Below, piece by piece: positions 4,164 through 56,479 of a stretch of DNA of 57,742 nt (position 1 is the first letter of the stretch; every line of letters begins with the position of its first letter). Position numbers and translations under genes: made by a program. Source of the stretch: an archaeon (GTDB lineage Archaea > Nanobdellota > Nanobdellia > Woesearchaeales > ARS49); NCBI GenBank assembly GCA_020051845.1, contig JAGVQG010000057.1:1-57742 (forward strand). Direction: 5' to 3'. Under the pieces are notes generated by a model that saw only the letters and a list, made by a program, of their open reading frames with translations, ran no database searches and had not been told where the DNA came from.

Positions 4164-4165
4164 TC

Positions 4166-19530: not shown

Positions 19531-19908
19531 TTCTATCAACCTGTCCGCCAGGTCGCCTTCACATATATCTGTGCCGCTTGTTATGCTTGTTGTGATGGAC
19601 GCAGGCAGCAGTCCTGCTTCGTACGAACAGGTCATCTCGCTGCCTTCCAGATATTCAGCCATCCTTGGCGTTGCGTTCTGTATCGAGATCATCCTTTTTC
19701 TCAGCACACATCCATTCTCGGTGATCCGCGCGCTTCCACGATCATCTATGACTGTCATACTGGCTTCTTCGCAGGCGTTCGCTTTCTTCTCGAAGCAGGC
19801 AGCGTTTGTTCCGCAATCAGTGGTCGGCCAGGACAGCCATATCGTCATCCCGACAAGCGCGATCATCAGGATTGCCGTTATTATCATCCATCTCTTTTGG
19901 GTTTCCAT
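19513..19908 (-). CDS. Cys-rich single-pass membrane protein A
   Basis: 131 aa. One N-terminal transmembrane helix (residues 7-26) is followed by an extracytoplasmic domain with six cysteines in the pattern DCG-x(4)-CF-x(3)-A-x(2)-C-x(2)-A-x-MT ... C-V ... M-x-C ... C-x-G-x-L-x-D-x-L. The protein at 43125 has the same pattern, so the two are paralogues. The ATG follows the stop of the giant gene by 1 nt (TGATATG), so it is the last gene of the giant-protein operon. The cysteines probably form disulphides. The family is not recognised. Confidence 0.75.
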   Translation of the reverse strand: METQKRWMIITAILMIALVGMTIWLSWPTTDCGTNAACFEKKANACEEASMTVIDDRGSARITENGCVLRKRMISIQNATPRMAEYLEGSEMTCSYEAGLLPASITTSITSGTDICEGDLADRLIELRPYS

Positions 19909-19909
19909 A

Positions 19910-22900
19910 TCAGGTTCTGCAGGCTAGTTTCGCTGCCTCGATATCTCTTAGCGCTTCTGTGATCTTTACGATGGGTTCTGTCGACCTTGTCGTCACGTCG
20001 CGTGTCAGGTCGGCGTCCTTTGGCGAAGCCTTTGACTTTGATGCGGATAGCGACGCTTTCTGCGCTTGTTCGGCTATCGTGCTCTCTTGGGCTGCGGCAG
20101 GGGGTTGTGCGTTTCCTGGTCTTTCCAGTCTCACGAATGCGAGGCTCATGTCATCGTTGTATATGCGCTTGATGCTTCCGTCTTCTATGGTCTTGTATTC
20201 GGAAAGCAATTCCGCGCTTTGGCGTCTTGCTGCGCTACCTATGAATGTGTTATCAATCCATCTTATCGCGCTATCTACCGCTGCTTTTGTCGATTCCCAA
20301 GACTTAGTGAGTATGTTGTTGGCTTTTTTTGGCAGGTATGCTTCTTCTGTGACTATCTTGTTGAACTGTTCACGCATGGCTTCGACTTCGGTGTAGTCGT
20401 TCGAGACTTTTTTGCCTAGTTCAATCATCTCTTTCGCTGAAGGCACCGCTCCCTTATCTAGTACTTCCTGCAGGCGCGCGTCGAATGACTTGAGTTTTTC
20501 TGGTAGTTGGCGTTGTATGAAGTCATTGATTTTCGCGATGTCTGATTGCGATGCGCCCGCGCGTTCCATCCTCGCTCGGACTTTTCTCGCTAGTTCTACT
20601 ATCTCAGGGGATCCTGGTTGCATCGCTTTTTCGGTGAGCGCGTTCAATTCTGATATTTTTATTTGTATTTCTGATTGTAATGTCTTCTGCACCTCTGCAG
20701 GTGTTCTCAGATCCATTGTCTTGAACATCTTTGTTCTTGTCAGGTCTGTGCTCTCAGCTATTCCGTCATTGCGCAGCACCACTGCTTCGAGTCCGTTTGT
20801 CGGTAGTTCGACGCTCTTGACATTTCCGACCACTCCTACCACAGTGCCTCCTTTTGCGGCTGATGGGTTGAATAATAGTTTTCCGTTCACTCTGCTTATC
20901 GTGCTGATGTCGTATCCGAACATGTGCGCTGTCGCGCTCTGGCTGTTCACGTCAAGCACGACTCCGCTCATGAAATGTCCTGGTAGGCTCTTCATGTTCG
21001 CTTTTGAGACGATTGTTGCCATCTGTTTCAACAATTCATTGCGGCCCATCACTGGTGATAGTGCAATCTCCAATTCCGCGTATGTCGCGCTTGTTATTGG
21101 CTTGCCGAGCGTGTTCTCTACAGTGGTTCTCTTCTGCGCTTCGAGTTTGAGCGCTAGGTCCTGCAGCGCGTATCTGCGCATCCTTGAGGTGTAGGCTCTT
21201 AGCGCAGCCGCTTCTGTGCCGTGGTTCTTCTGGTCGCTGAACTCAAAACTGATGGTGTCCTGTCCATTCACGTCTTTGAATGTCCTTGCGCTTACAGTGT
21301 CGCCTCCGAATGTCTGCAGTTGTTGCAGCCACAGGCCCACGTCTTTGACTCCGATGGCTTTTGCCACTGCTTGCACGTCGGCAGGGAGGTCCTCTAACCG
21401 TGATGCTTCCATGCTCTTGGCTTGCGCGAGCTCTTCATAGGTTATCCTTCCGCCAGGCAGTGTCGCCGGGTCTTTCTTTGTGGCTTCTGTGACGAGTGAG
21501 TTCGCGAAGTCGGATACTGCCCTCTTTGCTATTTCGACACTTGTCTGCACAGCTGAATCTTGTGTGGTGGAGAATGTCTCTATGTGTCTTGTTAGCGCCT
21601 CCACCATTATGTCTGCTTCTACCAGTTCAGGTTCACCTCGCAGTTTCTCGAGCCTCTTCACTGCGTCATTGAGGGTCAATGTCTTTCTTTGGCCCCCGAT
21701 GACGATGTTTATCTCTTCGGTCTCTTTTGCCGCGGGTACTAGTGTCTCTCTTATGAACACGGTGGGTGTCCTTGTCTCTTCGCCCATTATGGTCTCAAGA
21801 CGCATCTGAACCTGCTCTGTGAGAAGTGCGGATTTGGTGTGGTCTTGCGCGGTGTAATCCGTAGACTCTATCCTTGTCTGCAGTTCTTGCAGTATGCCTT
21901 GCTTTCCTTGCAGCACTTCTTCTCTTGTGGTGATTCGCAGTTCGTTGACTATGTTTCGTATCGCGGCTTTTTGTTGTTCTCCGCGCAGTGCGGTCGTCGC
22001 ATGTAGCGCGTCAGGTGCTGTGAGTGGGTTGTTCACCCATTCCGCAATCCGTTGTCGGGTTATGATCTCTGTCGCCGCGAGAACCGCGCGTTCGTACGCG
22101 TTGCCCGAGACGAATTCCCTTGTCGCGGCCGTGTTCTCGACGACGGTTTTCTCGATTCCGGCTGGGAATGCCTGTCTTTGCGCAGCAGCTATCACGTCTT
22201 GCGGTGTGTTTGGTGAGTTTTCGTATAGTTCGGGATTTGTCGCTCGTTCCAGCTCCTGCCTGACTCTCCACGCCTCGCGCAGCACAGTCCGGTCTGTCGG
22301 GGGTATTGTCGATATGAAGTCGGCCTCTGCCAACAAGCCTATCTCATGCGCTCGTGTGGGTGAGAAGCCGTGGTTTAGCGCGGCCGCTTCAGATAGTTCG
22401 TGCGTCAGTATCATCTTTTCCAGTTGTGCTTTCTGGGCAGGGTTTGCCGCTACCCTGTCTGTTATCATCGTGGTGAACGCGTCGATGTTCTCCCTGATTA
22501 TGACTACTTCGTAGATCGGCCTTCCCGTGATCGTGTTTATCCCGATCTCCCTTCTTGTCGCGGGGTCTAGTACAGGGTCGCCGGCAGTTCTTGTGGATTG
22601 GACGCTGATCTTAACTTCTGCCGCTATCGCAGGATCTTGCAGTCCACGCACTGGCAGTTTAGGTAGTTCGATTGTGTTGACCGCGGATAGGACTTTCGGG
22701 ATCACTTCAGATGCTTCTTTGTTTGTCTCTGCTGTTGATTCGACGCTTTCCTTGCCGACTGCGCGTTCGATGACTTCCAACGATCCCAAGTATGCTCCTT
22801 TGTTGCCGTATTCGGCGCTGATGAATTCTTTGCTTCCGATCTTGAGGCCTTGTAGCTGGCTGGGTTTGAGGTTGACCTCTTTTGTTGGTTGTATATTTTG

Positions 22901-25900
22901 GCTGCCTACTTCGATGGAGTTCGTGCCGACGTTCTTTATCTTGACCAGTCCATTTTGGAATACTATCTCAAGCTGGTCCCTTGAGATTTTTAGCTGTCCT
23001 TCGTTGGCGATTTGTAGTCGTTTAGGATCCCCTGCTTCAGACCGCCTTCCAAGTATTATCTTTTCTCCTTCATTGAGTGATAGTTGTTTTCCATCGTTCA
23101 CACGTATCACGACGCCGCCTTTTGGCTTGGCGGCTGGCGCGGATATCTCGGCGCCCAGGGATATCACGACATTCTTTGCGAATCCTATCTGTGTGTCTGT
23201 GGTTAGTGGTGCTGCTTTGAATCCGATGTTCTGTCCATTAACGCGGACTCCGTTCTTGCTGCCTATGTCTTGGATCATAACAACGCCGTTCTCTATGAAT
23301 ACCTCTGCGTGTCTTCCCGAGACTGTCATGTCACCTATGATGAAGTTGTTCGGATTTTCGGTCTCTAGTGCTTTGTCACGTCCTATGACTAGCCTTTCCC
23401 CGGGCCTTAGGATGACTGTCTTTCCTGCGATGGTTATCTTTCGCGCGGTTTCAACTGCGGGGCCAGCGACTATCTGCACTGGTGGTTCGGCGACAGCGGG
23501 CTGTGCAGCGGGTCCTCCGAATATGTTTCCTATCGGCAGTTCTTTCACTTCGACAATCGTCTTCTCTCCTCCTTCTCTCGGGGTCACTTCGATTCGGTCA
23601 GCGACGACCCTGTTCTGGCCGTCGGTTTCCACTATCCTGACGATCTTATTGTTGCCGATTATTCTCTCATCTCCAAGCACGGTCTTGGTTTTTACCGGGC
23701 CTTCTTGTACGATGTTCATCCTTTCAAGGCGTTGGAAGCCGTACATGTCTCCGAAACCTTCGATCTTTCCTTCGTATGTCTTTATCCAGACTATTCCGTC
23801 TAAGTCGACTGCCACGGAATCGAATCTCTTGCCTTGCTTGAGTCCGGAATCAAGTGATTGTGCGAGTCTGTCTTTTGCTGTGAGCGGCACCTTGACCGCA
23901 GGAACCACTGATTCGGGTGCGGCGGGTTTTTGAGCTTTTGATTCTGCCAGTTCGATGGTTTTTGGTATGTCTCCTTGTCCTGTGATGAACTCATCATAGG
24001 TGACTATTCTTCTTGAGATTGAGTCGGCGTTCGGTTTGTCTATCAATCCGGCTGTCTGCGCTTTGTTGAGCATCTCGCGCAGCGCGATTCTGTCTATTGC
24101 TTCGGGTACGACGTATGCTTTGTGGTTTGCAATATCAGATGGATTTCCCTTCACAGGGTTTGTGTCGACAACAATGTAGAATGGGCCGTGCGGACCTGCG
24201 GTTGTTGTTGTATCGCCATTCGCAAGTTGACCGAATTGTCCCTGTATGATTTCTCCTTCAATCATTATTCTAATGATATTGCTTAGACCGCCTTTTTCGA
24301 TTTCTGTTCCCTGGGCCCATAGATTTTTGTCTGCCCCAATGTCCAATACTTCTAGTCGCTGTTTCTCTAGCTTGTCGGAATTTTTTCTATCGGTTATCTT
24401 TTGATTGACTTCTGGGTTGTTCTTCACTGCATCTGAGAATGCCTTTTGTTCGTAAATGAATAAGTATGCGTCAAGGGTTTTCTTAGCGCCAGCGCTTAGT
24501 TGTGATTGGACTTGTGCTCTTATTTCAGGGGCAAGATTAGAGTATATGATGTGTCCCATTATGCCTTTTGATTCAATCATATTTACTACGTTCTGGAGTG
24601 TGTATTCCTGGTCTAAATCTCTCGCGATTATCTCGTTCTGGGCGACTGGCAATTTCACTGCGGGTGCTGGTGTCTGTGCCGCGGGTTTTGGCGATTGTTG
24701 TGCGATATCTTGCGCTGTTTGTATGGTCTCTCTATCTATTATGGCCAGTCGTGTGTTCTGTTTTCCGAACAATTGTGCAAGTCTTGTGCTTCCAAAGCTT
24801 GTCGCGTCGCGTTCGAAGTACAGATTATCTCCTTCGTATCGCATCGTTATGTCTGTGTTGGCTATTCTTCTTGTGTATCCTAATCCTGAAACAAGGTAGT
24901 ACGTGTCAGTTCCTCCTTCGCGTGCGATGTCGACCTTTGCGACTGTGTCTACTGCTGATTCGAACATCGTTATTGATTTTACTCCTTCGCCTGCGGGTAA
25001 TCGTATCTGGTTGGCAAGTTCTTTGTTGACTGTGTCGATTGTCGTCCTGACTTTTGTAGTGGGTGCGGCGGGTGTCACGACTGGTTGCGGTCTTGGTTGT
25101 GCTTCAGGTTGTGCAATAGGCTCGGGCACGACTGGTTTTGCTTCTACTGGTGCAGGTTTTGCGGTGGCTGGCGCTTCGGGTTTAACGACAGGTTCAGGCA
25201 CTTTCACGACTGGTGCGGGCGTTACTGATTCTGGCGGCGTTATTGCGGGTTTCTCGGCTACGGGTTTCGCAATCGCTTCAGCCGCTGCTCTCGCTTTTGT
25301 CAGGTCGATCGGAGTGCCGACTTTATTGCCGCGGTCGCTGCTTCTTAGGGAGCTCAGCTCGACCCAGTCTGATGGTGTGTATTTGACAAGCTGGTTTATT
25401 CCTGTGTAGATTCGTTTCAATGGGACTAGGTTCAGGAAGGCTAATGGAGTGAGCATCCCTGTTGCAGTCACTGTTGCAGCGGTTATGGCTATGTCTGTCG
25501 GTATTCCTAGTTTTGTCAAGTATCTAGGATAGAATGGCATTATTTGCGCTTGTGTTGATTGACCTATGATCTCTCCGTTTTCATCTTTTATGTTCACCTT
25601 TTCTACCCTTAGCACCTTTCCGTCCGAGAGTCTCATCACGTCTCCGACAGCCATCGTGCGTTGGGTTTCTATGCTCTTTCCGAGCAATCCTAGGCTGAAT
25701 ATCCTTGGCAGTATTCCTCTGGGTTGGGTTGTCTTGACTAGCAATGTTCCTTGGTCTGTCGTTCTTAGGGATACTGTCACAGGGGTGGTGATTGTTCCTT
25801 TGCTGTCTTTGATATGCATTGACTCTTGCATTTTGCTGCCGAATATGCCGCCCTCGACAGTGCTTGTTGGTTTCACGACTGCATCGTTTAATTGGAGTTT

Positions 25901-28900
25901 TCCGTCCACAACGCTCAGTGTGCGTCCGTTCTCTAGGGTGTATACTCTGTTGGTGTCGAGTGTTAAGGTTTTGGACGTCCTTGATCCTAGCAGGCTACTC
26001 TGTTCAAGCTGCACGATTGTTTCACCTGTTGGAAGAACGGTGATATCTGTGATGCTTGTGCGTGGTGGTAGGTACTGTCGTAGGTTTGCGGCTTCTTCTG
26101 CTGTCGGTGTGACTTTGTTCGTAGTCTCGGGCGCAACGGGCGCTTGTTGCGCAGGTGCTACAGGTTTGCCCGTTTCTATAGGTGCGGCTTGCGGAGCCGC
26201 TGGCGCGCCTGCTTTTGTGGCTTCAATGAATGTTTGTGCGAGTACTGATTCGTCGACTTTGCCATTGGTCGTTGATTGTCCGACCATATTTGCATATTCT
26301 TGTGATGTCGGTATCTTGTTGTTGAGGGCTTCAGATAGGGTGAGTTTGCCTTCCATCACACCCTGGAGCGCTGTGCTGAGCCTGTCATTGTCGACTTTTC
26401 CGTTCTCAGTGAATCTCTCACGCAGTTTCACGAGGTTGTCGCCTGCGAATATTTCCTTTAGATTCAATTCAAGGTTGCGCTGTATCGATGGGCCTTTTGG
26501 ATCGAAGCCGCTCTTATCTAGATATTTGTAAAGGCCCATCTCGGTCATCATTCTGTCTGCTATCTCTGGATGCAGGGTGTCTGTTGCCAACTTCAGGAGC
26601 TGTTTGACAGTCACTGCGCGATCTGTCGGGAAAGTTGATCCGATCCTATCGAGGTCTTTGTTTCCTTTTATCGCATCCATAGCTGCTTTGTAGTCTGCTT
26701 CTACTGGTTTGTATCCCTCGATTGTTGTCACGCTACGGACGAATCTTAGTGGGAACTCGTGGCGCTGCGGCAGGTTTGTTTCAGGTATCACGAACCTGTT
26801 CTGTTGGGCATCGCTCACGAAAGAATCAGGTGTTGATATTCGTCCATCTGAACCGATGAGGTTCCTTGTCCTTGACAGTCCTTGTATGAATGCGATGTCT
26901 GGTGAATACTTGCCATCGACAGCTACTACGTCGAGGCGCACGCCAGATCCGCCCGCGTCGAGGATCATCTGCATGTTGGCTAGAAGTTTTTCTTGTTGTG
27001 GTCCGAGATTCCTTCCTAGCCGTGCCTGCTCGGCCAGCATCTGTTTGGCGCTTTCGGTGAGAGGCGCGTCTTGCAGCTTCACTACTGCGAGCGCCGCCTC
27101 GCTCGGTATGCCTATGTCCAGATCGCGGCCTTCGCCTGCTGTCGGTTTGGCTCCGCGCAAAGCTTTCTCTGCGTTGCCTCCTGCTATCTGTACGTTTATG
27201 CCTAGTTTGTTGGCGTAGTCAAAGACGCTCGATACTGCTTCGTCGACTTTTATCGTGACTGCTCTTCCGCTTTCGGATACTATGGATTGTTCGTTCCTTG
27301 TCTGTTCAGTGAATGGCTTTGCAGGTAGTGATAGTGCTTCTGCTTGTGCAGGCGCTTCTCTGCGTACCTGGGCTGTTGTGTCATCGAACATGATTTTTTC
27401 TGTTATTACGCTTCCATCTGCGTTTCGCAGGTATGACCCGTCTGTGTTCCTCAATCTTACATTAATCCCTGTGGCATCGACGCTTATGAACTCTGCTTGT
27501 TGAGCATCCTTTCCTTGGCGTCGGACTTCGAGCGCGCTGCCTTCGGTCATTTCTCTTGCGGCGATACGTAATGCCTCTCCGGATCGGGGTTCACCGAATA
27601 GAGGCACTATCTTTGGAGGTGCGGGTGTTACTTCGACGGGTGTTGGTCGTACTGCAGGTTGCGCGACTGCAGGTGTTGCTGGAGCGGCGGGTACTGCTGC
27701 GGGTTGAGCGGCTGCTTCTACTGCTTTGGCTGATTCTGCCAGGTTGCTTCTCACTATCGCTTGCGCCGCGAGGTTCTCGCCGACGATGCTTGCGACGGTA
27801 GCGACTTGGGCCTGACCCGCGCTTTGCACGTAGTCGAATGCTGCTTTCTTTACTTCTGCGCTGTCGCGGCTTATCTCTAGACGGAGTTCGTTCATAAGTT
27901 CTGCCGGCAGAGTCTCTCCTGCCGCGAGCCGTCTCGCGACCTCTGCGTTCACTCCAGCATCACGGAATGGTTTGCCTCCTGCAAGTACTTGGGCAAATCT
28001 GTTGTTGAGTTCCTGCTCGACCATCGCGCGTTTGTAGAGTTCATACTTCTGGACCTGTTCAGTGGTCATGGTCTTGATTTTGAGATCAGTGGGTGGAGTG
28101 TTACTCTGCTGTTCCTGGTATTCTTGTTGTGCTTTCACGAATTCAGGGTCGCCAGTGAAACGGATGAGCTCTGCGGTTGCGGGCTTCGCTGTCTCAGATC
28201 TTGCTTTTGTTGTCGCGTCCTGTAGTATCTGCGCGGCGGTTTCTGCCCTTGCGTATGGCTCGAGATTTACGTCTCCGTTATTCTTGATAGACGCCACTAC
28301 TGCGTTGGCGACCTGTTGAGCGTCTGCTGCGCTCTCGGCGTCAAGCGGGGTTGCCGAGGCTGCTGCTTGCTGTCTCTGTAGTTCTTGTACGAGCGGCGCT
28401 ATCTTGGATTGGTCGTTTATTCCCTCCTTCTGCTGTCTTTCGACTTCTTTGGCGAGTTTTCCGAGGGCTTCGTAATATGTCTTGGTTCGGCTCAGCGCGC
28501 CTCCCTCGGCGTTTGCCATAGATTCAGAAAATGATCCCAATGCCGCGGTCAAATCAGAGGCTGCTTTCTCTCTTATGGTTTTTGCTGCTTCAGGCAGTAG
28601 TGTCGCTTTGTTCGTCTCTATGAATTGTGCCGCGTGTATCGCATTCTGCGCTTTTGGTATCACTTCGCTTACTGCTCGGTCTATGACGCCGCCTGTTTCT
28701 GCTATTGAGCGAACCATTGACTCGGCAGTGCCTGTGGTGATCATTCCGAGCCGCCGTTGCTGGTCAACGACTTCAATGGCTGCTTGGGTGTGTTTTAGGT
28801 TCGCTAGCTTGAACGCTGTTGCGTCCAGGCCGGGTGATTTCATTCCTGCCTTGACCTCTTCAGGTGTAAGCACGCCCGTCGCTTTTGCGCGTTCAGCAGC

Positions 28901-31900
28901 GGCTTCGTTCATTCGTTGCACGGCAGAGATGAGATTATCATTACCTTGGACTTTGTCAAGGGCGGCATTGATGGTTTTCTGCGTCTTACCTTCACCGACC
29001 ACTTCAGCCAATACATTTGCTCTTGCTTTGGTCTCCGCAGCCGCGTATTGTGCGTTTATCTCGGATTCCGCTTGGTTCTTGGTTCCTGCAGTAAGTGATC
29101 CTAGTTTCTTTATCGCGGCGTCTCTTTGAGCGGTCAAAGGTTCGAGCGCATCCTTCACCTTTGCTTCGTACGCAATTTTTTGTGGTTCTGCTAGTCTTCT
29201 TTCCACGGCCTGCGTCGCGAATGTGGCGTCCTGCAACGCGGTCGCTCTTTCTTGTGATGCTCGTTGTGTGATCTCAGGAACGGTCCTACCCAGGATTCTT
29301 CCGGTGGTGCGCGCTGCTGCTGCTTCCATTCCACGCGTGCCGATGGCGAAGGTTACGCCGCCGACCAGGGCATGTCCTGCTATGCTTTCTATGTCGATCT
29401 TTTCTCCTTTCAACCACGCAGAAGTTACTTCTGGAACGACCGCGGGCACTAGCATTGCTGTTTGTGTTATTGCCTCTTTTCCTACGAACTCCGCGAGCTT
29501 ACCGATGGTCTGGCCGCTGTTTAGGGAACCTTGCACGAATGAACGCACGCCATTACCGAAACTCGCCGCCGCGCTGTGCGATATCGATCCTGCACCGAAG
29601 AAGGCAAGTGACGTCGAGTACGCGTTTGCGGCGGCTATGCTCGTGCCCAGGACTCCGCGCTCGCTCAGCGTAGTTATTCCAAGATTGTCCTTCCAGGATT
29701 GTGCGTTTGTGATCTTGCCGTTGTAGGCCATGTCCATCGTGTTTATGGCAAGTCCGCCGCCGTATTGTGCGGCTTGATTCACTCCTTCGAAGATGGCCGT
29801 TCTGGCCAAGAATTGCACGGCAGGTCTTGCGCCAGCCCGCACTCCTGTGGAAAGCCAATTGATTGCTTGTACTGCTTTGGCCCCTCCCATGACGGATGTT
29901 CCAAGTCCCATGGTCGCCAGACTGAGTACTAAAGTTTGGTCTCCTAGATATGTGTCCATCCAATTTTCCTTTAGTCCATATTCGATGTTTGCATCGACGT
30001 GGACAGCCGCGTTCTTGATGTATTCCCGGTTTATGCTGAGCGTTCCAGCTTTTTTGTCTTCAGTGATGACGCCTTGTTTGATGGCATTCTGCTTGAGTCC
30101 TTCATCGAGATTGTTGATGCCTTGTGCCGCGACAAGGCTCATGACGAGACCGCGCGCAACGTTCGTTTTCGCCGTTGCCAGGGAGCTGTCGGTGTACTCG
30201 TTGAAATTTCCATTGACTGCTTGTGTTACGAGTCTGTTGCTCTTTGAGAGGTATGATCCTTCGAGGCGGTGTTCGACAAGATATCTGGCGTAGTTGCCCT
30301 CAAGGTCTGTGGCTGCCGCGCCTGCGTTGAGCGCCATGATGTCGTTCGTGTTTCTGTTGCCTATTATCGAGTCGAGTTGTTTCTTGTAAGCTGCGACTGA
30401 ATTCACGTAGTTTTCTTGCGGCATGGTTTTCTGCTGGGTTTGCAGTCTGTCCATGCCGGTCTTTATCTCAGCCAGAATTTTACTTTGTTGGACGAACGCG
30501 AAATCCGAATCCCTTGTGGTCGTTGTGCCGTCGCTCAGGTATGCGTTCATTAGATCCTGCCCCGATCGTGCGGTCGCCATTCTTTTTCCTGTGAGCTCGT
30601 TGAGGGATTTGACGTCGTTGTCGTTTTGAAGCGCTTTTGTCATTGCTTTTGCGGCGTCATCATAGCGTGTTCCCTTGTCCATGAGGTCGCGCATGCCTTT
30701 CGCGATATTTTCATCTATGCTTGTCTCTAATTGTTGTTTGATCTCGACTTGCGCCCTGTTGAACGCGTAATCCTGCAGGTTCGTGCCTGCCATGTTCTGT
30801 GACTGCATCGAGAAGCTCGGGTGTTTCTGCACGAACTGTGCCATCTGAGATTCGAGAAGCTCGCCTGTCGCTCCGTTCTTTATGGCGCGGTAGCTCTCCA
30901 TGTTTGCGGCTTTCTTGAAGTCGGTCTCAAGAACCTGGTCTGCGGCGTTGCGGACTGTCGCTACCCACTCTTGTGTGTGTTGGTTGTCATAATCTGATTT
31001 CAGTGCCGTTCCGTACTTCCTCTGGTTGTAGGCTTGGTCTTGTGCGAAAGCGAGCGCGAGTGAGGGGTCTCCGTTCATGATGATCTTGGCGCGCAAGGCC
31101 ATCAATTGCATGTCTTTGCTGTTCTCGGCTTGTTTGTCGACGTAGTCTTTTGTTGACATGCTTGGCGCTTGGTCGACCCAGGTCTTCAGTCGTGAATCCG
31201 TGTCAATCATTAGTGCGGAGAAGCTCGAGACTATTGCTCGTTTGTTCTCAGTCTTTACAGTGTCGAGATCATTGACTGCTGTCTTGATTAGGTCTGGTAC
31301 GTTGGCATTCTGGCCAAGTTTTCCTCGTTCTGCCAAGGATAGACCACTGAGCAGCCTGATTCGTTCCTCCTGCGCCCGTATGTCCAGATTGTCAGAACCC
31401 TTCCTGCCTTGTATGTCAGCGAGTGCGGTGGTTGTGGCTTTGACTATGTTCTCTTGGTTTGTGATTTGCTGCTCTAGGGTCTTTTGGTAATCTGTGAATT
31501 GTCCAGAATCAGCTTTGAGCTTGTCTATTCGTTCACTCAGGAATATCTTCTCGTTGGCGTCTGTTGTTCTGCTTAGTCTGTCCTGCAAGGTCTTGATTCT
31601 TGTGTCGATTGCTTCGTTCCCAGTCTGGATCGCGTACTTTGCGCTTTTCAGAAGGTCTTGCTGTCCTGCCCTTATTTTGAGGAGCCTGTCAAGTTCGGTC
31701 GCAGTGGTGCTTGGCCGGCCCAGGCCAATTCTTGTGGCTTCGACCTGGTTGTATTGCGCTTCGGCCATCTTGTCCTTGCGTCCGGCCAGTGCGACATTGT
31801 CGATTGATAGCGACCGCAGGTCGCTTATCTGTTCCAGAAGATCGATGCTTTCGGGTTTGACTCCTTGTCGTGTCAGGAATGATTTGTCGTTTTCAGTCAG

Positions 31901-34900
31901 CGTGTTTGCCTTTGCGCGGGCGTAGACATCGGTCCACTGTTGGTTTTCGTTGAGGCGCTGTGTGAATTCGTGGTCTGCCAGTCCCCAGGCAATCATGTTA
32001 TTATATTGTGTGTTGGCCTGGTAATTTGTTTCACGCGAGTTTTGCAGGCTCTTTATGAGATCGCCGTTCTTCTTCACGACATCGCTGTCGATGTATGCCG
32101 CATCTTTCTGGAGTTGTTTCGCCCTTGTGATGTCTTCATTCAGTTTGGGGTTTGCTTTGAGGTATTCTGGATCGTTGATGCGTGATAGGTCTATTCTCAT
32201 CGCTGCCAGTTCTGCCTTTGCTGCGACGGCTTTATCGTACTTCTGCAGGTCGATTTTCGCGATCTCTGCATTGGTCATGGCGTTCGTGACTGCTTGGTCT
32301 GACGCGGTGGCGGCCGATTTTGTGCTGTCGATGGCGTTGCCGCGTTGAGCGTATGCGTTCGCCATCGTTGTGCTTAGTTGCAATGACTTGATTGTGTTTT
32401 GCACTATCTCGTCGAGCTGTTCTTTGGTGTATGCGCTCTTGTAATTATCACGTATCAGGCTATCGACCGCGTTCTCCATAGCTTTCGTGTCGCCGGTATT
32501 GTCGAATTCTTTGGCGAGCACCAATAGTGCGGTCTTGTGTTCGTCATCCTTGTCTGATAGGACTTGCATGACGAGCGAAGCGTAGAGATTGTTGACTGCC
32601 TGCTGTCCGGCGTTTCCTTTTGCAAGGTCGGCGATTTCTTTCTTCTCGGAATAAGTATTCAATGTGTTGAATGCTTGTTCGTAGCTTCGGTCAAGAGATG
32701 CCTTGATGTCATTTTTGCGTTGGTCGATGGCCTTCTTTTCGTTGTCGTCTTTTGGCTTTGTTGAGTCAAGTTCTGTGATTGCTGCTAATGTGTCATAGGT
32801 GATGATTGTGAGTATGCCTTTTGTATTGGTGGCGTCCTGTCGCGCGGCGGCGTCTTGAAGCATTGTCTGCAAGGCGCCGATGTTCTGGTCGAGCAGGTGT
32901 TGGCGTTCCTCTGTCTTGAGCGCGTTCCATGCAGGGGTGTTCCTGACATTCTCGACGTTCTTCGTTATTGAGCTGGCTGCAGTCGCCGCGTTTGCTAGAT
33001 CTCCGATTCGCACATATGCATCTTTGATCTGTCCGAGCATTGTGTTCTGGTTCTGCTTACCTGCGCTCGCGTCGAAGATGAATGGCAGGGCGGTCTTTGC
33101 GCGGGTTATCAGATCGTTGCTGGCGGTATTGATCTCTCGCTGGGCAGCATCGATTGCGGCCTTGGCGTTGGATGCTTCCTGGGTGTTTTTCGCCGTGGCT
33201 AGTTGTTTCGTCGCTGCATTAAATTGGTTTATCGCGGTGGATGTCTTTGCTTCGTCTATGCGCAATCCGAGGCTTGCCAGGTCATAATTCTTCAGAGCGA
33301 AAGAATAATAGTCGAATCCTTTGAGCGGATCGAAGTCCTTGGCGACTGCCTGGTCTCTGTTCGCCGCCTGCGCTTTGGCCGCGGCTTCAGCAGCCGCGCC
33401 GGTATTTCCTTGTGCCAGGTATATTTGGGCCAGGGTTTCGTAGATGTCTGTTGGCGTTTGCCGTCCTTGTTGTTTGGCGATGAAATCCCTCAGTCCTTGG
33501 CCTGCGTTTTCGAGCATTTCCTTTGCGCGGGCCTGGTCTGCGGGGTTTGTCGAGCGTGAAAGGATGAATGCTTGTTGTGCCAAGTCGTTTGACTTGCGTT
33601 GTATGTCCCTCAGGGTCATCTCGAGCTTGGCGTCGTCGCTCAATTTTGCCCAGACATCTGGATTTTGCGCCTTCATTTCGTCAGCAGTGGCTCCTAGTCG
33701 AAGCATGAGATCATTCTTGTCTTGATCCGAAAGCGTAGCGCTTGTCGCGGATGATATGGCGACTGCTAGTGCATCTTTGTAAGCCTGCTCATTGCGCTTC
33801 GGGTCGTTGGCTATGGCACTTGCTGCCTCCACCAGGTATTGTGCACGGGCTCGCAAGAAATCAGGGTCAGTGTCGGATTGCACTTTGAGTTTTGATGCAA
33901 TGTTTTGGTACATGTCGGCGCGCGTCTTGGAATCGAGAGTGTTCTGCGCTTCGGCCGCGTCTATGGACGCCTCAATCAGACTGTAGACTGGTTGGTCTGA
34001 CTTCGGGAGCGCTGCTTTCGCTGCTTTGAAATCTTTGGCTTCAATGTACGTGCTGACAACGCCTTGAAGCGCTCGTTTGCTGTCCCCTCCTTTTGAGGCG
34101 TATTCATTGAATGCATTCACTGCATCGGCATATTTCCCTTCGGCACGGGCAGTGAGCGCGTTATAGAGCGACACTCTTGCGTCAGCCGGATCTTTGATCA
34201 TCTTCAGGAAGTCCTCGCCCAGGAAGCCCGTCGTCTGGCCTTGGGTGAGCACGCGTCCATAGATTGACGGTGTCTCTATGTTGCCTAACTGTGCGGCGGT
34301 TTGTTCCTTGGCTTTTGTGTATACTACCACACCAAATGCTTTTTGCAGCTCATCTTTAGTTGGTTCGCGATTTAGTTTTGCTTTTATTTCGTCGTATGCT
34401 TGTTGGGTGTATTCCGTCTTCTGGTGTTCTGTGAGCTTGCCCATGTAGTATGCTGTGAGCTCATCTGAGAGCTCTTTTGCTACGCGTTCGCCCTTGCTCC
34501 ATCCCTTCTCAAGGTCCTTGAGGACGTTGACGTTCGCTTCACCGTTCGTGTACTGGGTCTTGTAGAAATCGCCAAGCTTGCCGCTCTGTCCTGCTCCGAA
34601 CAACAGTACGTTCTCGCCTGTTATGCGCAGCACTTTACCGTCGCCATGGAAGACCTTGATGCTGTTGTCCATGGCCTTGGCAAGGTCGCGGCTGAAGGTG
34701 TAGTCTGAAGCGAGCAATCCCGTCTTGTCGTTGAGGACGCTCTGTAGCACTATATCATCGGTGCGCATTCTGGCTGTGTTCTTTTCGACGCCGTTCTCTG
34801 TGGTCTTGCTGAAGGTCTCTGTTGTGCTCAGTGCTTTTGCATTGGTGATCATTGATTTGTCTTGCGCGTTATTCGGGTCTAGTTGCTTTCCACTTGAGTC

Positions 34901-36991
34901 GTAATAGATGCCGTCTTTTAGGAATATTAGTGCGGGCTTGCCATTTACTGTTACTCCAAGCACTTGGCGTCCGTTCTTGTCCTGTATATCGAATTGCTGG
35001 TTGAATGTCAGATAATCTTGGTCATCTGCCGCTGAGCTGCCGACCAGGAAGTATCTTGTCGGATCCCGTGTCTTTTCTTTGGAGTCCGGTGGCGTGCTTC
35101 TGTATGCGAAATTGGCGCCTTTGCTCACGGAATCGACTTTCAATCCATCAGCAGTGAGTATGTGGCTGGGGCCGCTTCCCGCGATGTCTCCGTTGAGCCA
35201 GCCTCTTTCAGGATGGTAGAATCTTGACAAGAATATCTCGGGCTTGCTTGTGAGGTCCTGTTCCAGGCCGTTGAGTGTTTTCTTGTCGAGTTTTGTGTTG
35301 AACAGTTGCTGCAGGGTCATTCCTCCGCAGTTGATTGTGTCTCCTTGGGCAGAACAATCGTAACTCTTCGAGGTGATTGTGCCATCCGCCGCTCGTTCTG
35401 GTACTGTCACTTTTGATTTCTTGCCGTTCTTCAAATCCTCCTCGAGGCGATTTTGCACTGCCTGTAATCCTTCTTTTGCCGCTCGCACTGCTGCCAGGGC
35501 GTTTGCCTTGGCGTCGAGAAGCTCCCTGCCGTTCCCGGTCTGGAGATGATAGGTTACGGCTATTGGTCTGTTTTCCTTGTCTGCCGCTCCTGTGATTAGT
35601 TTGTATCCTGCGATGATCGCGTTGGCTCCTGTCCCGGTGAGCGTGAAATCGGTCATTTCCTGTGCGTTGTTCTTTATCTGCGTCACGAACGACCAGCTGT
35701 TTTCTTTGGTTGAATGGAAGCGGTCATCTGTCGGATGCTCTCCTGATCCTTTTACGACTGCGTCCACGTAGTCCTTTCCGGAGTAACTGAAGCCGGTCGC
35801 GGTCTGGGCTATTGATAGCGTTCCGTCAAAGATCTTGAATTGGTTGTCTCTGTGTGTGACAAGTATTGGTTTGTTGGCGTTTTCCGCCGTGCTCTTCACA
35901 TCGATGGCATCCCCTTCAAGGGTCTTTCGTCGGTAGATGTCGATGGAGCCGGCACCTTCTATTATTACCTTGTCGGTTCCGATATTTGCTTCGATTTTCC
36001 CGTTCTGCAGGTGTGTGATTGACACTACTCCTTGGTCTGTGAGTTCTTTTATCTCGTGGACCGTTCCTTTGAACAGCGACGAGCAGATTGTGCCGGAACA
36101 ATAGTTGATGTTTCCATTCGCATCCATTGCCATGCTGTTGAAGACCTCATTGCCGAAGATGTAGATTGGGGGGTGGCCTTCGCGCAATATCACAAATCCT
36201 TGTTCCTTGCCTTCGAAATTTCCGACCACGTCCTTTCCAACAGGTTGTAGCAGGCGCACTTTATTGAGTCCTGTCATCTCAAGCCCTTGTGGTGGAGTCG
36301 CGCCTTTTGAGCAGTCGTTGAAGGCGGCATTGCACAGGTATGCCTTGCCGTCTGGAGTTGTGAGGAACACTATGTCGGTCGAACCGATCAGGTTCACATC
36401 GGTGTTCGCGAGGTTTGGGAATATCTTCTTCAATGCAGCGTTCGCGGCAGCAGGATCAAGACCTGAGAGTCCGGGTTTCTCGCCCGCGATCGCGTTGAGG
36501 ACTGCGGCGTTGCCGAGCTGATCGACAGTCATCAATTTCTTCATTTCTTGCGGTAGTTTGGAAAGAGTTTCTGGGCTTGTCGTAGCCAGGTGTTGTATTT
36601 GTTCAGCCGTGACTTGCTTCACTAGCGTCGGGTCACCTTCCATGATTTTCATCACTTCGACGAGCTGTTGTGTGTTCGGTCTGCCTTGGTACATCCCTAA
36701 TTGTGCGATTATCTTCGGGTTTGATTTAGCAAGGGCCTGTATATCGGAGAGTTTCATGGATTTGATCTGGTCAGCAGTGACCGATATTTTGTCTATTACT
36801 CCCTTGTAGGCTAGAGGTTGGTCAGGGCAGAAAGTGCTGGCGCAGTCTTTTACGGGCTGTGCGGACGGTTGTGCTGGTTGTGATCCGGTGCTGCCTGTTG
36901 ATGGGTTTTGCGCGAACGCAACAGGGAAGCTGCTGATGATAAGCATGATCGTTAGGACGATGCTTGCCAGTCCGCGTGTTGTCTCGTTCAT
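19910..36991 (-). CDS. 5,693-aa giant exported multidomain protein
   Basis: One uninterrupted 17-kb frame. Signal peptide 1-27 (cleavage VAFA-Q). Residues about 30-930 are beta-rich with scattered cysteines. About 940-2330 is a long TPR-like/coiled-coil solenoid. About 2345-2545 is a hydrophobic Gly/Ala-rich block. About 2550-3130 is helical, followed by a Pro/Ala linker. About 3238-3440 is a nucleotidyltransferase-like fold (D3290, D3292, D3354). Then come beta modules, a second hydrophobic patch (about 3825) and a Pro/Ala/Lys linker. Two FHA domains follow (about 4516-4612 and 4620-4727), then HELSEA (4864) and a helical C-terminus. The start overlaps the stop of the pilin-like gene. It is probably a surface or host-contact protein; its function is unknown. 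Confidence 0.9.
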   Translation of the reverse strand: MNETTRGLASIVLTIMLIISSFPVAFAQNPSTGSTGSQPAQPSAQPVKDCASTFCPDQPLAYKGVIDKISVTADQIKSMKLSDIQALAKSNPKIIAQLGMYQGRPNTQQLVEVMKIMEGDPTLVKQVTAEQIQHLATTSPETLSKLPQEMKKLMTVDQLGNAAVLNAIAGEKPGLSGLDPAAANAALKKIFPNLANTDVNLIGSTDIVFLTTPDGKAYLCNAAFNDCSKGATPPQGLEMTGLNKVRLLQPVGKDVVGNFEGKEQGFVILREGHPPIYIFGNEVFNSMAMDANGNINYCSGTICSSLFKGTVHEIKELTDQGVVSITHLQNGKIEANIGTDKVIIEGAGSIDIYRRKTLEGDAIDVKSTAENANKPILVTHRDNQFKIFDGTLSIAQTATGFSYSGKDYVDAVVKGSGEHPTDDRFHSTKENSWSFVTQIKNNAQEMTDFTLTGTGANAIIAGYKLITGAADKENRPIAVTYHLQTGNGRELLDAKANALAAVRAAKEGLQAVQNRLEEDLKNGKKSKVTVPERAADGTITSKSYDCSAQGDTINCGGMTLQQLFNTKLDKKTLNGLEQDLTSKPEIFLSRFYHPERGWLNGDIAGSGPSHILTADGLKVDSVSKGANFAYRSTPPDSKEKTRDPTRYFLVGSSAADDQDYLTFNQQFDIQDKNGRQVLGVTVNGKPALIFLKDGIYYDSSGKQLDPNNAQDKSMITNAKALSTTETFSKTTENGVEKNTARMRTDDIVLQSVLNDKTGLLASDYTFSRDLAKAMDNSIKVFHGDGKVLRITGENVLLFGAGQSGKLGDFYKTQYTNGEANVNVLKDLEKGWSKGERVAKELSDELTAYYMGKLTEHQKTEYTQQAYDEIKAKLNREPTKDELQKAFGVVVYTKAKEQTAAQLGNIETPSIYGRVLTQGQTTGFLGEDFLKMIKDPADARVSLYNALTARAEGKYADAVNAFNEYASKGGDSKRALQGVVSTYIEAKDFKAAKAALPKSDQPVYSLIEASIDAAEAQNTLDSKTRADMYQNIASKLKVQSDTDPDFLRARAQYLVEAASAIANDPKRNEQAYKDALAVAISSATSATLSDQDKNDLMLRLGATADEMKAQNPDVWAKLSDDAKLEMTLRDIQRKSNDLAQQAFILSRSTNPADQARAKEMLENAGQGLRDFIAKQQGRQTPTDIYETLAQIYLAQGNTGAAAEAAAKAQAANRDQAVAKDFDPLKGFDYYSFALKNYDLASLGLRIDEAKTSTAINQFNAATKQLATAKNTQEASNAKAAIDAAQREINTASNDLITRAKTALPFIFDASAGKQNQNTMLGQIKDAYVRIGDLANAATAASSITKNVENVRNTPAWNALKTEERQHLLDQNIGALQTMLQDAAARQDATNTKGILTIITYDTLAAITELDSTKPKDDNEKKAIDQRKNDIKASLDRSYEQAFNTLNTYSEKKEIADLAKGNAGQQAVNNLYASLVMQVLSDKDDEHKTALLVLAKEFDNTGDTKAMENAVDSLIRDNYKSAYTKEQLDEIVQNTIKSLQLSTTMANAYAQRGNAIDSTKSAATASDQAVTNAMTNAEIAKIDLQKYDKAVAAKAELAAMRIDLSRINDPEYLKANPKLNEDITRAKQLQKDAAYIDSDVVKKNGDLIKSLQNSRETNYQANTQYNNMIAWGLADHEFTQRLNENQQWTDVYARAKANTLTENDKSFLTRQGVKPESIDLLEQISDLRSLSIDNVALAGRKDKMAEAQYNQVEATRIGLGRPSTTATELDRLLKIRAGQQDLLKSAKYAIQTGNEAIDTRIKTLQDRLSRTTDANEKIFLSERIDKLKADSGQFTDYQKTLEQQITNQENIVKATTTALADIQGRKGSDNLDIRAQEERIRLLSGLSLAERGKLGQNANVPDLIKTAVNDLDTVKTENKRAIVSSFSALMIDTDSRLKTWVDQAPSMSTKDYVDKQAENSKDMQLMALRAKIIMNGDPSLALAFAQDQAYNQRKYGTALKSDYDNQHTQEWVATVRNAADQVLETDFKKAANMESYRAIKNGATGELLESQMAQFVQKHPSFSMQSQNMAGTNLQDYAFNRAQVEIKQQLETSIDENIAKGMRDLMDKGTRYDDAAKAMTKALQNDNDVKSLNELTGKRMATARSGQDLMNAYLSDGTTTTRDSDFAFVQQSKILAEIKTGMDRLQTQQKTMPQENYVNSVAAYKKQLDSIIGNRNTNDIMALNAGAAATDLEGNYARYLVEHRLEGSYLSKSNRLVTQAVNGNFNEYTDSSLATAKTNVARGLVMSLVAAQGINNLDEGLKQNAIKQGVITEDKKAGTLSINREYIKNAAVHVDANIEYGLKENWMDTYLGDQTLVLSLATMGLGTSVMGGAKAVQAINWLSTGVRAGARPAVQFLARTAIFEGVNQAAQYGGGLAINTMDMAYNGKITNAQSWKDNLGITTLSERGVLGTSIAAANAYSTSLAFFGAGSISHSAAASFGNGVRSFVQGSLNSGQTIGKLAEFVGKEAITQTAMLVPAVVPEVTSAWLKGEKIDIESIAGHALVGGVTFAIGTRGMEAAAARTTGRILGRTVPEITQRASQERATALQDATFATQAVERRLAEPQKIAYEAKVKDALEPLTAQRDAAIKKLGSLTAGTKNQAESEINAQYAAAETKARANVLAEVVGEGKTQKTINAALDKVQGNDNLISAVQRMNEAAAERAKATGVLTPEEVKAGMKSPGLDATAFKLANLKHTQAAIEVVDQQRRLGMITTGTAESMVRSIAETGGVIDRAVSEVIPKAQNAIHAAQFIETNKATLLPEAAKTIREKAASDLTAALGSFSESMANAEGGALSRTKTYYEALGKLAKEVERQQKEGINDQSKIAPLVQELQRQQAAASATPLDAESAADAQQVANAVVASIKNNGDVNLEPYARAETAAQILQDATTKARSETAKPATAELIRFTGDPEFVKAQQEYQEQQSNTPPTDLKIKTMTTEQVQKYELYKRAMVEQELNNRFAQVLAGGKPFRDAGVNAEVARRLAAGETLPAELMNELRLEISRDSAEVKKAAFDYVQSAGQAQVATVASIVGENLAAQAIVRSNLAESAKAVEAAAQPAAVPAAPATPAVAQPAVRPTPVEVTPAPPKIVPLFGEPRSGEALRIAAREMTEGSALEVRRQGKDAQQAEFISVDATGINVRLRNTDGSYLRNADGSVITEKIMFDDTTAQVRREAPAQAEALSLPAKPFTEQTRNEQSIVSESGRAVTIKVDEAVSSVFDYANKLGINVQIAGGNAEKALRGAKPTAGEGRDLDIGIPSEAALAVVKLQDAPLTESAKQMLAEQARLGRNLGPQQEKLLANMQMILDAGGSGVRLDVVAVDGKYSPDIAFIQGLSRTRNLIGSDGRISTPDSFVSDAQQNRFVIPETNLPQRHEFPLRFVRSVTTIEGYKPVEADYKAAMDAIKGNKDLDRIGSTFPTDRAVTVKQLLKLATDTLHPEIADRMMTEMGLYKYLDKSGFDPKGPSIQRNLELNLKEIFAGDNLVKLRERFTENGKVDNDRLSTALQGVMEGKLTLSEALNNKIPTSQEYANMVGQSTTNGKVDESVLAQTFIEATKAGAPAAPQAAPIETGKPVAPAQQAPVAPETTNKVTPTAEEAANLRQYLPPRTSITDITVLPTGETIVQLEQSSLLGSRTSKTLTLDTNRVYTLENGRTLSVVDGKLQLNDAVVKPTSTVEGGIFGSKMQESMHIKDSKGTITTPVTVSLRTTDQGTLLVKTTQPRGILPRIFSLGLLGKSIETQRTMAVGDVMRLSDGKVLRVEKVNIKDENGEIIGQSTQAQIMPFYPRYLTKLGIPTDIAITAATVTATGMLTPLAFLNLVPLKRIYTGINQLVKYTPSDWVELSSLRSSDRGNKVGTPIDLTKARAAAEAIAKPVAEKPAITPPESVTPAPVVKVPEPVVKPEAPATAKPAPVEAKPVVPEPIAQPEAQPRPQPVVTPAAPTTKVRTTIDTVNKELANQIRLPAGEGVKSITMFESAVDTVAKVDIAREGGTDTYYLVSGLGYTRRIANTDITMRYEGDNLYFERDATSFGSTRLAQLFGKQNTRLAIIDRETIQTAQDIAQQSPKPAAQTPAPAVKLPVAQNEIIARDLDQEYTLQNVVNMIESKGIMGHIIYSNLAPEIRAQVQSQLSAGAKKTLDAYLFIYEQKAFSDAVKNNPEVNQKITDRKNSDKLEKQRLEVLDIGADKNLWAQGTEIEKGGLSNIIRIMIEGEIIQGQFGQLANGDTTTTAGPHGPFYIVVDTNPVKGNPSDIANHKAYVVPEAIDRIALREMLNKAQTAGLIDKPNADSISRRIVTYDEFITGQGDIPKTIELAESKAQKPAAPESVVPAVKVPLTAKDRLAQSLDSGLKQGKRFDSVAVDLDGIVWIKTYEGKIEGFGDMYGFQRLERMNIVQEGPVKTKTVLGDERIIGNNKIVRIVETDGQNRVVADRIEVTPREGGEKTIVEVKELPIGNIFGGPAAQPAVAEPPVQIVAGPAVETARKITIAGKTVILRPGERLVIGRDKALETENPNNFIIGDMTVSGRHAEVFIENGVVMIQDIGSKNGVRVNGQNIGFKAAPLTTDTQIGFAKNVVISLGAEISAPAAKPKGGVVIRVNDGKQLSLNEGEKIILGRRSEAGDPKRLQIANEGQLKISRDQLEIVFQNGLVKIKNVGTNSIEVGSQNIQPTKEVNLKPSQLQGLKIGSKEFISAEYGNKGAYLGSLEVIERAVGKESVESTAETNKEASEVIPKVLSAVNTIELPKLPVRGLQDPAIAAEVKISVQSTRTAGDPVLDPATRREIGINTITGRPIYEVVIIRENIDAFTTMITDRVAANPAQKAQLEKMILTHELSEAAALNHGFSPTRAHEIGLLAEADFISTIPPTDRTVLREAWRVRQELERATNPELYENSPNTPQDVIAAAQRQAFPAGIEKTVVENTAATREFVSGNAYERAVLAATEIITRQRIAEWVNNPLTAPDALHATTALRGEQQKAAIRNIVNELRITTREEVLQGKQGILQELQTRIESTDYTAQDHTKSALLTEQVQMRLETIMGEETRTPTVFIRETLVPAAKETEEINIVIGGQRKTLTLNDAVKRLEKLRGEPELVEADIMVEALTRHIETFSTTQDSAVQTSVEIAKRAVSDFANSLVTEATKKDPATLPGGRITYEELAQAKSMEASRLEDLPADVQAVAKAIGVKDVGLWLQQLQTFGGDTVSARTFKDVNGQDTISFEFSDQKNHGTEAAALRAYTSRMRRYALQDLALKLEAQKRTTVENTLGKPITSATYAELEIALSPVMGRNELLKQMATIVSKANMKSLPGHFMSGVVLDVNSQSATAHMFGYDISTISRVNGKLLFNPSAAKGGTVVGVVGNVKSVELPTNGLEAVVLRNDGIAESTDLTRTKMFKTMDLRTPAEVQKTLQSEIQIKISELNALTEKAMQPGSPEIVELARKVRARMERAGASQSDIAKINDFIQRQLPEKLKSFDARLQEVLDKGAVPSAKEMIELGKKVSNDYTEVEAMREQFNKIVTEEAYLPKKANNILTKSWESTKAAVDSAIRWIDNTFIGSAARRQSAELLSEYKTIEDGSIKRIYNDDMSLAFVRLERPGNAQPPAAAQESTIAEQAQKASLSASKSKASPKDADLTRDVTTRSTEPIVKITEALRDIEAAKLACRT
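22811..23446 (-). other. Tandem FHA domains inside the giant protein
   Basis: FHA1 shows GERLVIGRD (R4538), SGRHAEV (R4560, H4561) and DIGSKNGVRVNG, the three conserved phosphothreonine-pocket blocks. FHA2 keeps EKIILGRR and ISRDQLEI but has VGTNSIEVG in place of the GS-x-NG block, so it may not bind phosphopeptides. FHA domains normally act in the cytoplasm; here they follow a Sec signal peptide. Confidence 0.8.
26672..27280 (-). other. Nucleotidyltransferase-like fold inside the giant protein
   Basis: The sequence IAGGNAEKALRGAKP, then GRDLDIGIP with D3290/D3292, and later VRLDVVAVDG with D3354, reproduces the GG...DxD...D arrangement of the polymerase-beta-like nucleotidyltransferase fold. 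A helical region resembling the CCA-enzyme/polyA-polymerase head follows. Whether it has NTP-transfer activity is unknown. Confidence 0.6.
29357..29959 (-). other. Hydrophobic Gly/Ala-rich block of the giant protein
   Basis: Residues about 2345-2545 contain several weak hydrophobic helices (LVLSLATMGLGTSVMGG, AIFEGVNQAAQYGGG, TAMLVPAVVPEV, HALVGGVTFAIG) without strong transmembrane charge boundaries. This resembles the membrane-passage or pretoxin segments of polymorphic toxins. It could insert into its own membrane or a partner's membrane (inference). Confidence 0.4.
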
Positions 36992-37944
36992 GTTATTTGT
37001 ATTGGGATATTAATCTTCCAGGTCGCTTCTTTGTTGTCTGTTATAGTGACGATTGCTTCATATGTTCCTTCGGAAGCAGCGGTTACGGTCAGTGTGCCGT
37101 CTTGCTCTATCGTCGAGAACGGGCTGTCGACGGAGTAGGTTATCGGGTCGCCGTCAGGATCGCTACCTTCGATTTTCACGGTCCTTCTGTCGTCCGTGTG
37201 CATCACGAGGCTTACGGGTGATGGTGCATATGGTGGATTATTAGGGGTCAATATTACAGCGAAGGCGAAGGTCGCGGATCCTCTGTTGAGTCTGAAGAGG
37301 ATGGTGCCAGGACCTTGTGTCAGATATGTGATATTCGAGCCAAGAGATTCATGCATTCCTAGGTCTATGGCGTCATCGGTTATTGATGCAGCTACTGTCG
37401 CGGCATCGTCCCTTAGTTCGAGAAGTGGGAAGTTGTCCGCCGCGGTCATTTGTGTTATCTGCTGTGTGAAGTTGCCTTTCGATATCGTCATGTCCCATGT
37501 GAGGGTCGCCGTTACTTTGCCTGGTTTTGCGTCGACCGTGACTTGAGGCGAGTCTCGTCTTTCGACGTTGAATCCAAGTGCCTGTATTTTTTGGGGGTCT
37601 GCGCAGATCGTCAATAGTTTGACCGTGAGTCCTGCGATGTCTGGAGTTATTGAGTCAATTGGTGGGACAGAATCTCCTTGGGCGTCTCGTTCAATCACGA
37701 CAAACTCTGTTCCTATGTCGATCGCGTTGGTGGGCCTTACGGCATATCCGCCAGTGCCTGCGACGAACGTGATTGCGTCGTGTAGTGATGTCTCGAGGCA
37801 GGATTGTATGAGGCTTCTCGCCATTCCTGTGTCAACAACCACCGGTTTTGGCGCGCTAGTCTGAAGCATTAACACGAACGCGACCGTTATCACCACAAGC
37901 AGTCCGATTATCATGAATATCGTGAGTTGCGCGCGTCGTTTCAT
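36988..37944 (-). CDS. Pilin-like protein with Ig/cadherin-like C-terminus (paralogue 2)
   Basis: 318 aa. It starts MKRRAQLTIFMIIGLLVV, a short basic segment and hydrophobic helix like class III (type IV pilin) signal peptides. Next comes an SCLETSLHDAITFVAGTGGY motif, then a beta-rich body. A C-terminal domain (about 230-318) contains GSDPDGDPITYSV and GTYEAIVTITDN, typical of cadherin/Ig-like repeats. It is a paralogue of the 338-aa protein at 41258. It overlaps the genes on both sides by 4 nt (wHTH upstream, giant downstream). Likely a pilus-like or surface subunit functioning with the giant protein. Confidence 0.75.
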   Translation of the reverse strand: MKRRAQLTIFMIIGLLVVITVAFVLMLQTSAPKPVVVDTGMARSLIQSCLETSLHDAITFVAGTGGYAVRPTNAIDIGTEFVVIERDAQGDSVPPIDSITPDIAGLTVKLLTICADPQKIQALGFNVERRDSPQVTVDAKPGKVTATLTWDMTISKGNFTQQITQMTAADNFPLLELRDDAATVAASITDDAIDLGMHESLGSNITYLTQGPGTILFRLNRGSATFAFAVILTPNNPPYAPSPVSLVMHTDDRRTVKIEGSDPDGDPITYSVDSPFSTIEQDGTLTVTAASEGTYEAIVTITDNKEATWKINIPIQIT

Positions 37945-50781: not shown

Positions 50782-50796
50782 TGTGAGACTACTACA

Positions 50797-56433: not shown

Positions 56434-56474
56434 TTTATATAGTGTGAGAGAAGTGGTTTACCTAGTAAAGAGGG
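56434..56474 (+). promoter_or_regulatory. TATA and Shine-Dalgarno of tail-fibre-like gene 3
   Basis: TTTATATA at 56434-56441 and AGAGGG at 56469-56474, like the AGAGGT leader of tail-fibre-like gene 1. The start is the ATG at 56480, since the frame's earlier ATG at 56444 lies at the TATA box. Confidence 0.6.
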
Positions 56475-56479
56475 TTGTG

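Follow-up and report, generated by a model that had tools for sequence, protein, structure and literature searches.

Most genes of DPANN archaea are without a function, and it is an open question by what means these archaea act on their partner cells. The window studied here, a stretch of 57,742 nucleotides of archaeal DNA, raises this question in the form of a 17-kb gene for a protein of 5,693 residues: is the gene real, does it stand alone, and where would its product work? The window is contig C12 of a genome of 1.33 Mb in 68 contigs (G000; the other G-numbers used below are genomes of relatives that were compared, and L-numbers are loci fetched from them). Thermosome, GluRS and NOG1 genes, which mark the organism as archaeal, share the contig with the giant, and the named relatives of a neighbouring winged-helix (wHTH) gene, obtained in a scan with a three-sequence alignment, belong to Candidatus Woesearchaeota. 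The DPANN origin suggested in an earlier sequence-only reading was supported, the organism being a Woesearchaeota-type archaeon, tiny and probably host-dependent. The following genes and parts are considered first:

37941-38426, minus strand: winged-helix (wHTH) protein, 161 aa, first of a coupled trio, with a weak HTH_24 match
36988-37944, minus strand: membrane-anchor protein, 318 aa, with one N-terminal TM (KRRAQLTIFMIIGL) and a Big_9 match (E=2.8e-5)
19910-36991, minus strand: giant exported protein (protein A), 5,693 aa in one intact frame
36911-36991, minus strand: signal peptide of the giant, residues 1-27, read from the sequence, with an AFA-Q cleavage site and KD 2.33
19513-19908, minus strand: membrane-anchored protein, 131 aa with six Cys, beginning right after the giant
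41258-42274, minus strand: anchor gene of a second, smaller cassette, a paralogue of the one at 36988-37944
39171-41261, minus strand: exported partner of the second cassette, 696 aa, ATGA-coupled to its anchor gene

Read on the minus strand from 19910 to 36991, the giant's frame starts with ATG and runs for 5,693 codons with zero internal stops, and the chance of so long a stop-free run in random sequence of the same composition is about 10^-104. Its codon usage scores better than that of every reverse-strand frame over the entire 17-kb gene. Between residues ~2500 and 4000, one shifted same-strand frame matches the giant's frame in this score, so that the codon-usage statistic alone is not decisive for that part. 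The sequence-only reading had described an intact gene without stops, whose start codon overlaps the upstream stop and whose product carries a signal peptide, and each of these points held: the frame is open throughout, the giant and the anchor gene share an ATGA, and the N-terminus reads MNETTRGLASIVLTIMLIISSFPVAFA followed by Q, a cleavable-looking signal peptide. Similar xxA-Q sites were found in G015, G071, G108 and L062.

The wHTH gene and the anchor gene overlap in the same way (ATGA) as the anchor gene and the giant. Members of the wHTH family occur in 167 of 353 genomes from the order; eight close relatives each lie upstream of an anchor gene, and more distant ones stand before large proteins of other types. 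Downstream of each of the eight anchors that have a wHTH relative upstream lies a giant or a frame crossing a contig end, so that the order wHTH, Ig-bearing anchor, giant is found in eight genomes including that of the window. The giants measure 5,693 (window), 6,464 (G015), 4,967 (G071), 7,989 (G108) and at least 6,059 aa (G334), and in the three other genomes the downstream frame leaves the contig early. The expected synteny of pilin-like and wHTH neighbours was therefore recovered in seven other genomes, but the "pilin-like" gene is better called a membrane anchor. Glu5 is the mark of class III pilins; the 318-aa protein lacks it and has one TM and a C-terminal Ig/PKD-like domain, for which reason we prefer the latter name. 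Two of its Cys are invariant in the family alignment.

The anchor family itself (profile A1) has matches in 218 of 241 genomes from the order. Among 62 anchor genes with a downstream partner in the fetched loci, partner lengths extended from the hundreds to above 6,000 aa with a median of 778 aa, 23 partners having at least 1,000 aa and 9 at least 3,000 aa (contig ends shorten several of them). The overlap between anchor and partner was exactly 4 nt in 26 of 56 pairs and 1 nt in two. The N-terminus of the 696-aa partner in the window matched a second subfamily profile (E=7.7e-6). It also contains PTSADYQKLSN repeats encoded by a 33-bp tandem repeat at 41044-41165, and close to this second cassette, at 43125-43532, lies a paralogue of the 131-aa protein, both being small membrane proteins that have several Cys. 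Two further anchor partners, of 589 and 609 aa (L019:12806-14575 and L020:4781-6610), have C-terminal halves that look beta-barrel-like by eye, which is odd in an archaeon.

Within the giant, the following parts were distinguished, all on the minus strand:

35903-36616, minus strand: stretch of the N-terminal module that defines the family, residues 126-363 (hmmsearch E=3.8e-8)
34007-34147, minus strand: TPR-like repeat, residues 949-995, start of a long helical region (TPR_19 E=0.0018)
29330-29935, minus strand: weakly hydrophobic Gly/Ala-rich block, residues 2353-2554, by composition and hydropathy
26717-27244, minus strand: class-II CCA-adding-like nucleotidyltransferase (NTase) core, residues 3250-3425, with AGGNAEKALRG...DLD and PLRFVR
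25424-25492, minus strand: most hydrophobic internal segment, residues 3834-3856, a possible TM (KD 1.53)
23180-23389, minus strand: FHA domain 1, residues 4535-4604 (Pfam FHA E=2.3e-15)
22892-23059, minus strand: degenerate FHA-like domain 2, residues 4645-4700 or thereabouts (FHA_2 E=0.058)

A profile of the N-terminal module was made from residues 41-1350 of nine relatives with their signal peptides removed. In hmmsearch it matched residues 126-363 of the window giant (E=3.8e-8), while decoys (reversed, shuffled and unrelated exported proteins) all gave E above 0.1; hhalign returned a probability of 82%, against ~0.1% for reversed and shuffled controls. The structure model of the module was poor (mean pLDDT 39.9). 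Cysteines of the giant occur in close pairs (50/55, 220/227, 298/303 and 546/555), the next being found only at residue 5691. As judged from these profile comparisons, the window giant is a member of a large, fast-diverging family of Woesearchaeota giants and not a lone curiosity. Since the N-module is common to the giants and their cargo differs, the export module is kept and the cargo exchanged.

One piece of cargo is the NTase domain. A 313-residue query had one other match in 279 genomes, lying within a frame of 5,913 aa in G186 (E=4.9e-11); with the resulting profile an 839-aa open frame in G239 was also recovered, and a 1,734-aa exported protein of G015 gave a weak match. In the alignment of these four, the DxD is invariant and an LR-x-x-R motif is present, the signature in G186 being partly degenerate (GG to AS). 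An AlphaFold2 model built with the four aligned sequences had a core with pLDDT 75-89, and its first 19 Foldseek hits in the PDB were all nucleotidyltransferases that add CCA or process tRNA. The best E was 9.5e-4, and TM-scores were low (~0.3) because the overall model was only moderate. Homologues, alignment and structural hits agree with the nucleotidyltransferase-like fold proposed beforehand, and by motif and model the domain has the GG...DxD head and the fold of class II CCA/poly(A) nucleotidyltransferases. It resembles class II CCA-adding enzymes (PDB 5hc9, 3h39, 1vfg) in fold and in its GG...DxD and PLRxxR-like motifs, and differs from them in being embedded in an exported giant. A CCA enzyme of the archaeal class I is encoded elsewhere in the genome, on contig C8, so the giant's domain is not the housekeeping enzyme. 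The G015 protein (L164:8173-13377) combines kinase-like, class-II NTase-like and, by eye, HD-like segments, and its only mature Cys is at position 28.

Two FHA domains had been expected; the first is strong (E=2.3e-15), but the second is degenerate and has lost its SxxH motif. FHA 1 keeps the motifs GR, SxxH and N, from which phosphothreonine binding is predicted, and its PDB matches were GarA and OdhI, which it resembles in sequence and binding residues; those proteins are small cytosolic regulators, unlike the giant. The NCBIfam scan of the giant returned FHA proteins and one weak sub-cutoff match, nothing more. Across the order, eight FHA matches lie in frames of more than 2,000 aa, one of which has 12,045 aa. 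A Ser/Thr protein kinase gene at 46470-47288 shares its contig with the giant and its FHA domains.

Other regions of the giant bore out the sequence-only reading in part. The long helical solenoid is weakly suggested by the TPR-like repeat, the only named part of this region, and by helices in a model of low confidence. The hydrophobic blocks exist but are weak, no internal 19-mer exceeding 1.53 on the Kyte-Doolittle scale, and the segment at 3834-3856 is also Gly/Ala-rich. Two of the Pro/Ala linkers clear a simple threshold (starting at residues 3084 and 3938). The letters HELSEA at residue 4864 form a candidate metallopeptidase motif. An ADP-ribosyltransferase-like look of residues ~4150-4440 gained no support and was dropped.

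In the relatives, the cargo is of other kinds. The G015 giant carries PP2C and PPDK/PEP-utilizer domains and, by motif only, a SecA-like helicase, for which a PDB search returned no match; that of G108 has DEAD, SpoIIE and HEAT domains and two metallophosphatase (calcineurin-type) stretches; and that of G062 has FHA, PP2C, HAD and HEAT domains and a beta-lactamase-like end. Kinase-like and, by motif only, JAMM-like and peptidase-like segments were seen in relatives. Searches with the whole giant against 57 relatives gave no match; as long queries hide domain matches, domains were searched one by one. Cargo queries against genome contigs and viral contigs found no relative, and sequence homologues of the giant's cargo are almost absent beyond a few giants. 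Giants from other families are equally huge and keep the gene order with other domain equipment. The domain set had been held to be undescribed, and in the sequence, domain and relatives searches no known characterised giant was similar over the full length. No description of the family was found in the searchable open literature, and a survey of huge proteins, in which the archaeal ones are mostly laminin-G proteins, does not mention Woesearchaeota (PMC11573180).

The largest protein reported in cultivated archaea has 9,409 residues (PMC10266531). In G003, a genome from the family to which the window genome also belongs, a frame of 7,532 aa that begins with a signal peptide is followed by a 10-N gap and a 12,045-aa open frame with an FHA domain and the ending QCAA (G003:C21, 1799-60518; L168-L170, L180). 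The two may together make up a single gene of over 19,500 codons, which would exceed that length. In G062 (L074/L077) and G164 (L065/L076), giants of ~9,000 codons are each split by a single frameshift, which may be a sequencing error. Another type of wHTH-linked giant, of 4,311 to more than 6,445 aa (L136, L138, L142, L143, L147), has no anchor gene, is rich in paired cysteines and in several cases ends in ..Y(T/V)EI(K/P/I).

Our preferred reading, in which confidence and doubt are about evenly balanced, is that the window giant is a surface-anchored multi-enzyme protein of host contact, from an undescribed Woesearchaeota family with a shared N-module for export and surface attachment and with swappable enzymatic cargo. 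The wHTH protein would regulate the trio, and translational coupling, visible as the overlap, would cause anchor and giant to be made in step. Exported by Sec, with its signal peptide cleaved, the giant would attach to the surface through its N-terminal module and the Ig-bearing anchor; the long helical region may form a stalk, weakly hydrophobic hairpins may engage a membrane, and the FHA, NTase and other domains would act in, or be presented to, the partner cell. Action inside that cell is suggested because NTP-using domains (helicase, PPDK, NTase) make little sense outside a cytoplasm. As few cargo homologues exist outside some giants, enzymatic activity is a prediction. Pfam and NCBIfam scans of the giant found no adhesin domain. 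The giants may thus be an undescribed family of surface machines acting on the partner cell, and the cassette together with the definable N-module offers a handle to find such proteins, to predict their cargo and to choose single domains.

The cytosol, however, is the usual workplace of FHA and NTP-using domains, and the giant could instead be a transmembrane receptor or scaffold with residues 1 to ~3830 outside, a TM at 3834-3856 and the FHA-bearing C-terminal third in its own cytoplasm, relaying contact to phosphothreonine signalling with a topology as described for SPEARE proteins. The segment at 3834, which could place the FHA domains inside, is the most hydrophobic internal stretch and has K/R after it, and the kinase gene at 46470-47288 would fit. 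We nevertheless regard this as unlikely: a KD of 1.53 is under the usual TM threshold, the NTase lies ahead of the segment, and the C-terminal 5,100 residues are Cys-free save the last one, as expected of an exported stretch. Many TM-like segments occur in G062, G164 and G108, so that cargo could face their own cytoplasm, and its return to the producer's cytosol is credible for these sequences; it is less so for G071, which has no such segment after the signal peptide. SPEARE giants, the nearest known parallel, are those of Nanohaloarchaeota (PMC6642349; reinterpreted in PMC10266531), and are alike in DPANN origin, in having thousands of mostly extracytoplasmic residues and in their proposed host contact. 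They possess adhesion domains of the laminin-G/Ig type, a TM close to the C-terminus with a cytosolic tail, and an ATPase resembling VirB4/TraG, whereas in the window giant, accompanied by a wHTH and an anchor gene, laminin-G/Ig-like adhesion domains are absent over the whole length and neither a VirB4/TraG-like ATPase nor a type III helicase-like tail had a match (Pfam and NCBIfam scans), its best internal segment being that at residue 3834. By the sequence features tested, the giant does not belong to the SPEAREs.

A purely structural role as coat or adhesin, with the enzymatic folds as relics used as bulk or binding modules, seems less probable still. Formation of a coat was proposed for giants of Omnitrophota (PMC10066038), which share ultra-small host-associated cells, few annotated domains and poor conservation with the present case and are set apart by description as bacterial, with ORFs above 20 kb and often many TM helices. 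Poorly conserved cargo, the degenerate FHA 2 and the altered NTase signature of G186 would suit a coat, but FHA 1 retains the residues for binding phosphothreonine, all four aligned NTase proteins keep the DxD, and the giant showed no laminin-G or Ig repeats in the scans. Least probable is a conflict weapon against rival or host cells instead of a symbiosis device, for although a conserved N-module with variable C-terminal domains, among them the kinase-, JAMM- and peptidase-like ones of relatives, recalls the constant N-terminal part and variable cargo of polymorphic toxin systems (PMC3482391), the giant is far above their usual size, has no recognised toxin domain, and no candidate immunity gene was recognised beside it (19513-19908 and 18634-19530 are without Pfam match).

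To return to the giant as a surface-anchored host-contact protein, its last cysteine may have a partner:

19919-19921, minus strand: lone C-terminal Cys, residue 5691 (ending ACRT), with no other Cys past residue 555
14544-18359, minus strand: exported protein, 1,271 aa, candidate protein B, whose only Cys is residue 23, just past the signal peptide

A Cys within the last three residues is found in the giants of the window (ACRT), G015 (VCS), G071 (ACT), G040 (QCTG) and G003 (QCAA), and likewise in a second G015 protein (KVC) and the smaller L062 protein (PCG). It is absent in G108, G105, G062, G164, G114 and G186 and hence not universal. The background is 22 of 442 complete ORFs, and for the Cys-poor giants the expectation from composition is well under 1%. 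Where downstream sequence is at hand (window, G015 twice, G071, G040), an exported protein comes next or a few genes on, and about four residues at most separate a Cys from its predicted mature start; this is the only mature Cys in the B proteins of the window and G071 (sequenced part) and in the 1,734-aa G015 protein. An early lone Cys was found in five of 224 exported-like ORFs of at least 300 aa, namely two B proteins and three ordinary lipoproteins, in an automatic scan that for technical reasons did not pick up the G015 and G040 B proteins. In the B proteins of G015 and G071, T, V or N precedes the early Cys, and a lipobox was therefore rejected; for the window (FASC) and G040 (GAAC) it is possible.

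Tentatively, and with more doubt than confidence, we suggest that the Cys of the ACRT end is disulfide-joined, tail to head, to the early Cys of the 14544-18359 protein, the two forming a still larger machine at the surface. Pairs of this kind are also predicted for G015 (two loci), G071 and G040. The pairing is put forward as a hypothesis because the pattern was noticed before it was counted; if true, it would be a new way of building giant extracellular assemblies. Elsewhere in the window (49153-52326 and 56444-57598), three exported proteins carry "NVGIGT" tail-fibre-like repeats, one of them with a Peptidase_S74 chaperone end.
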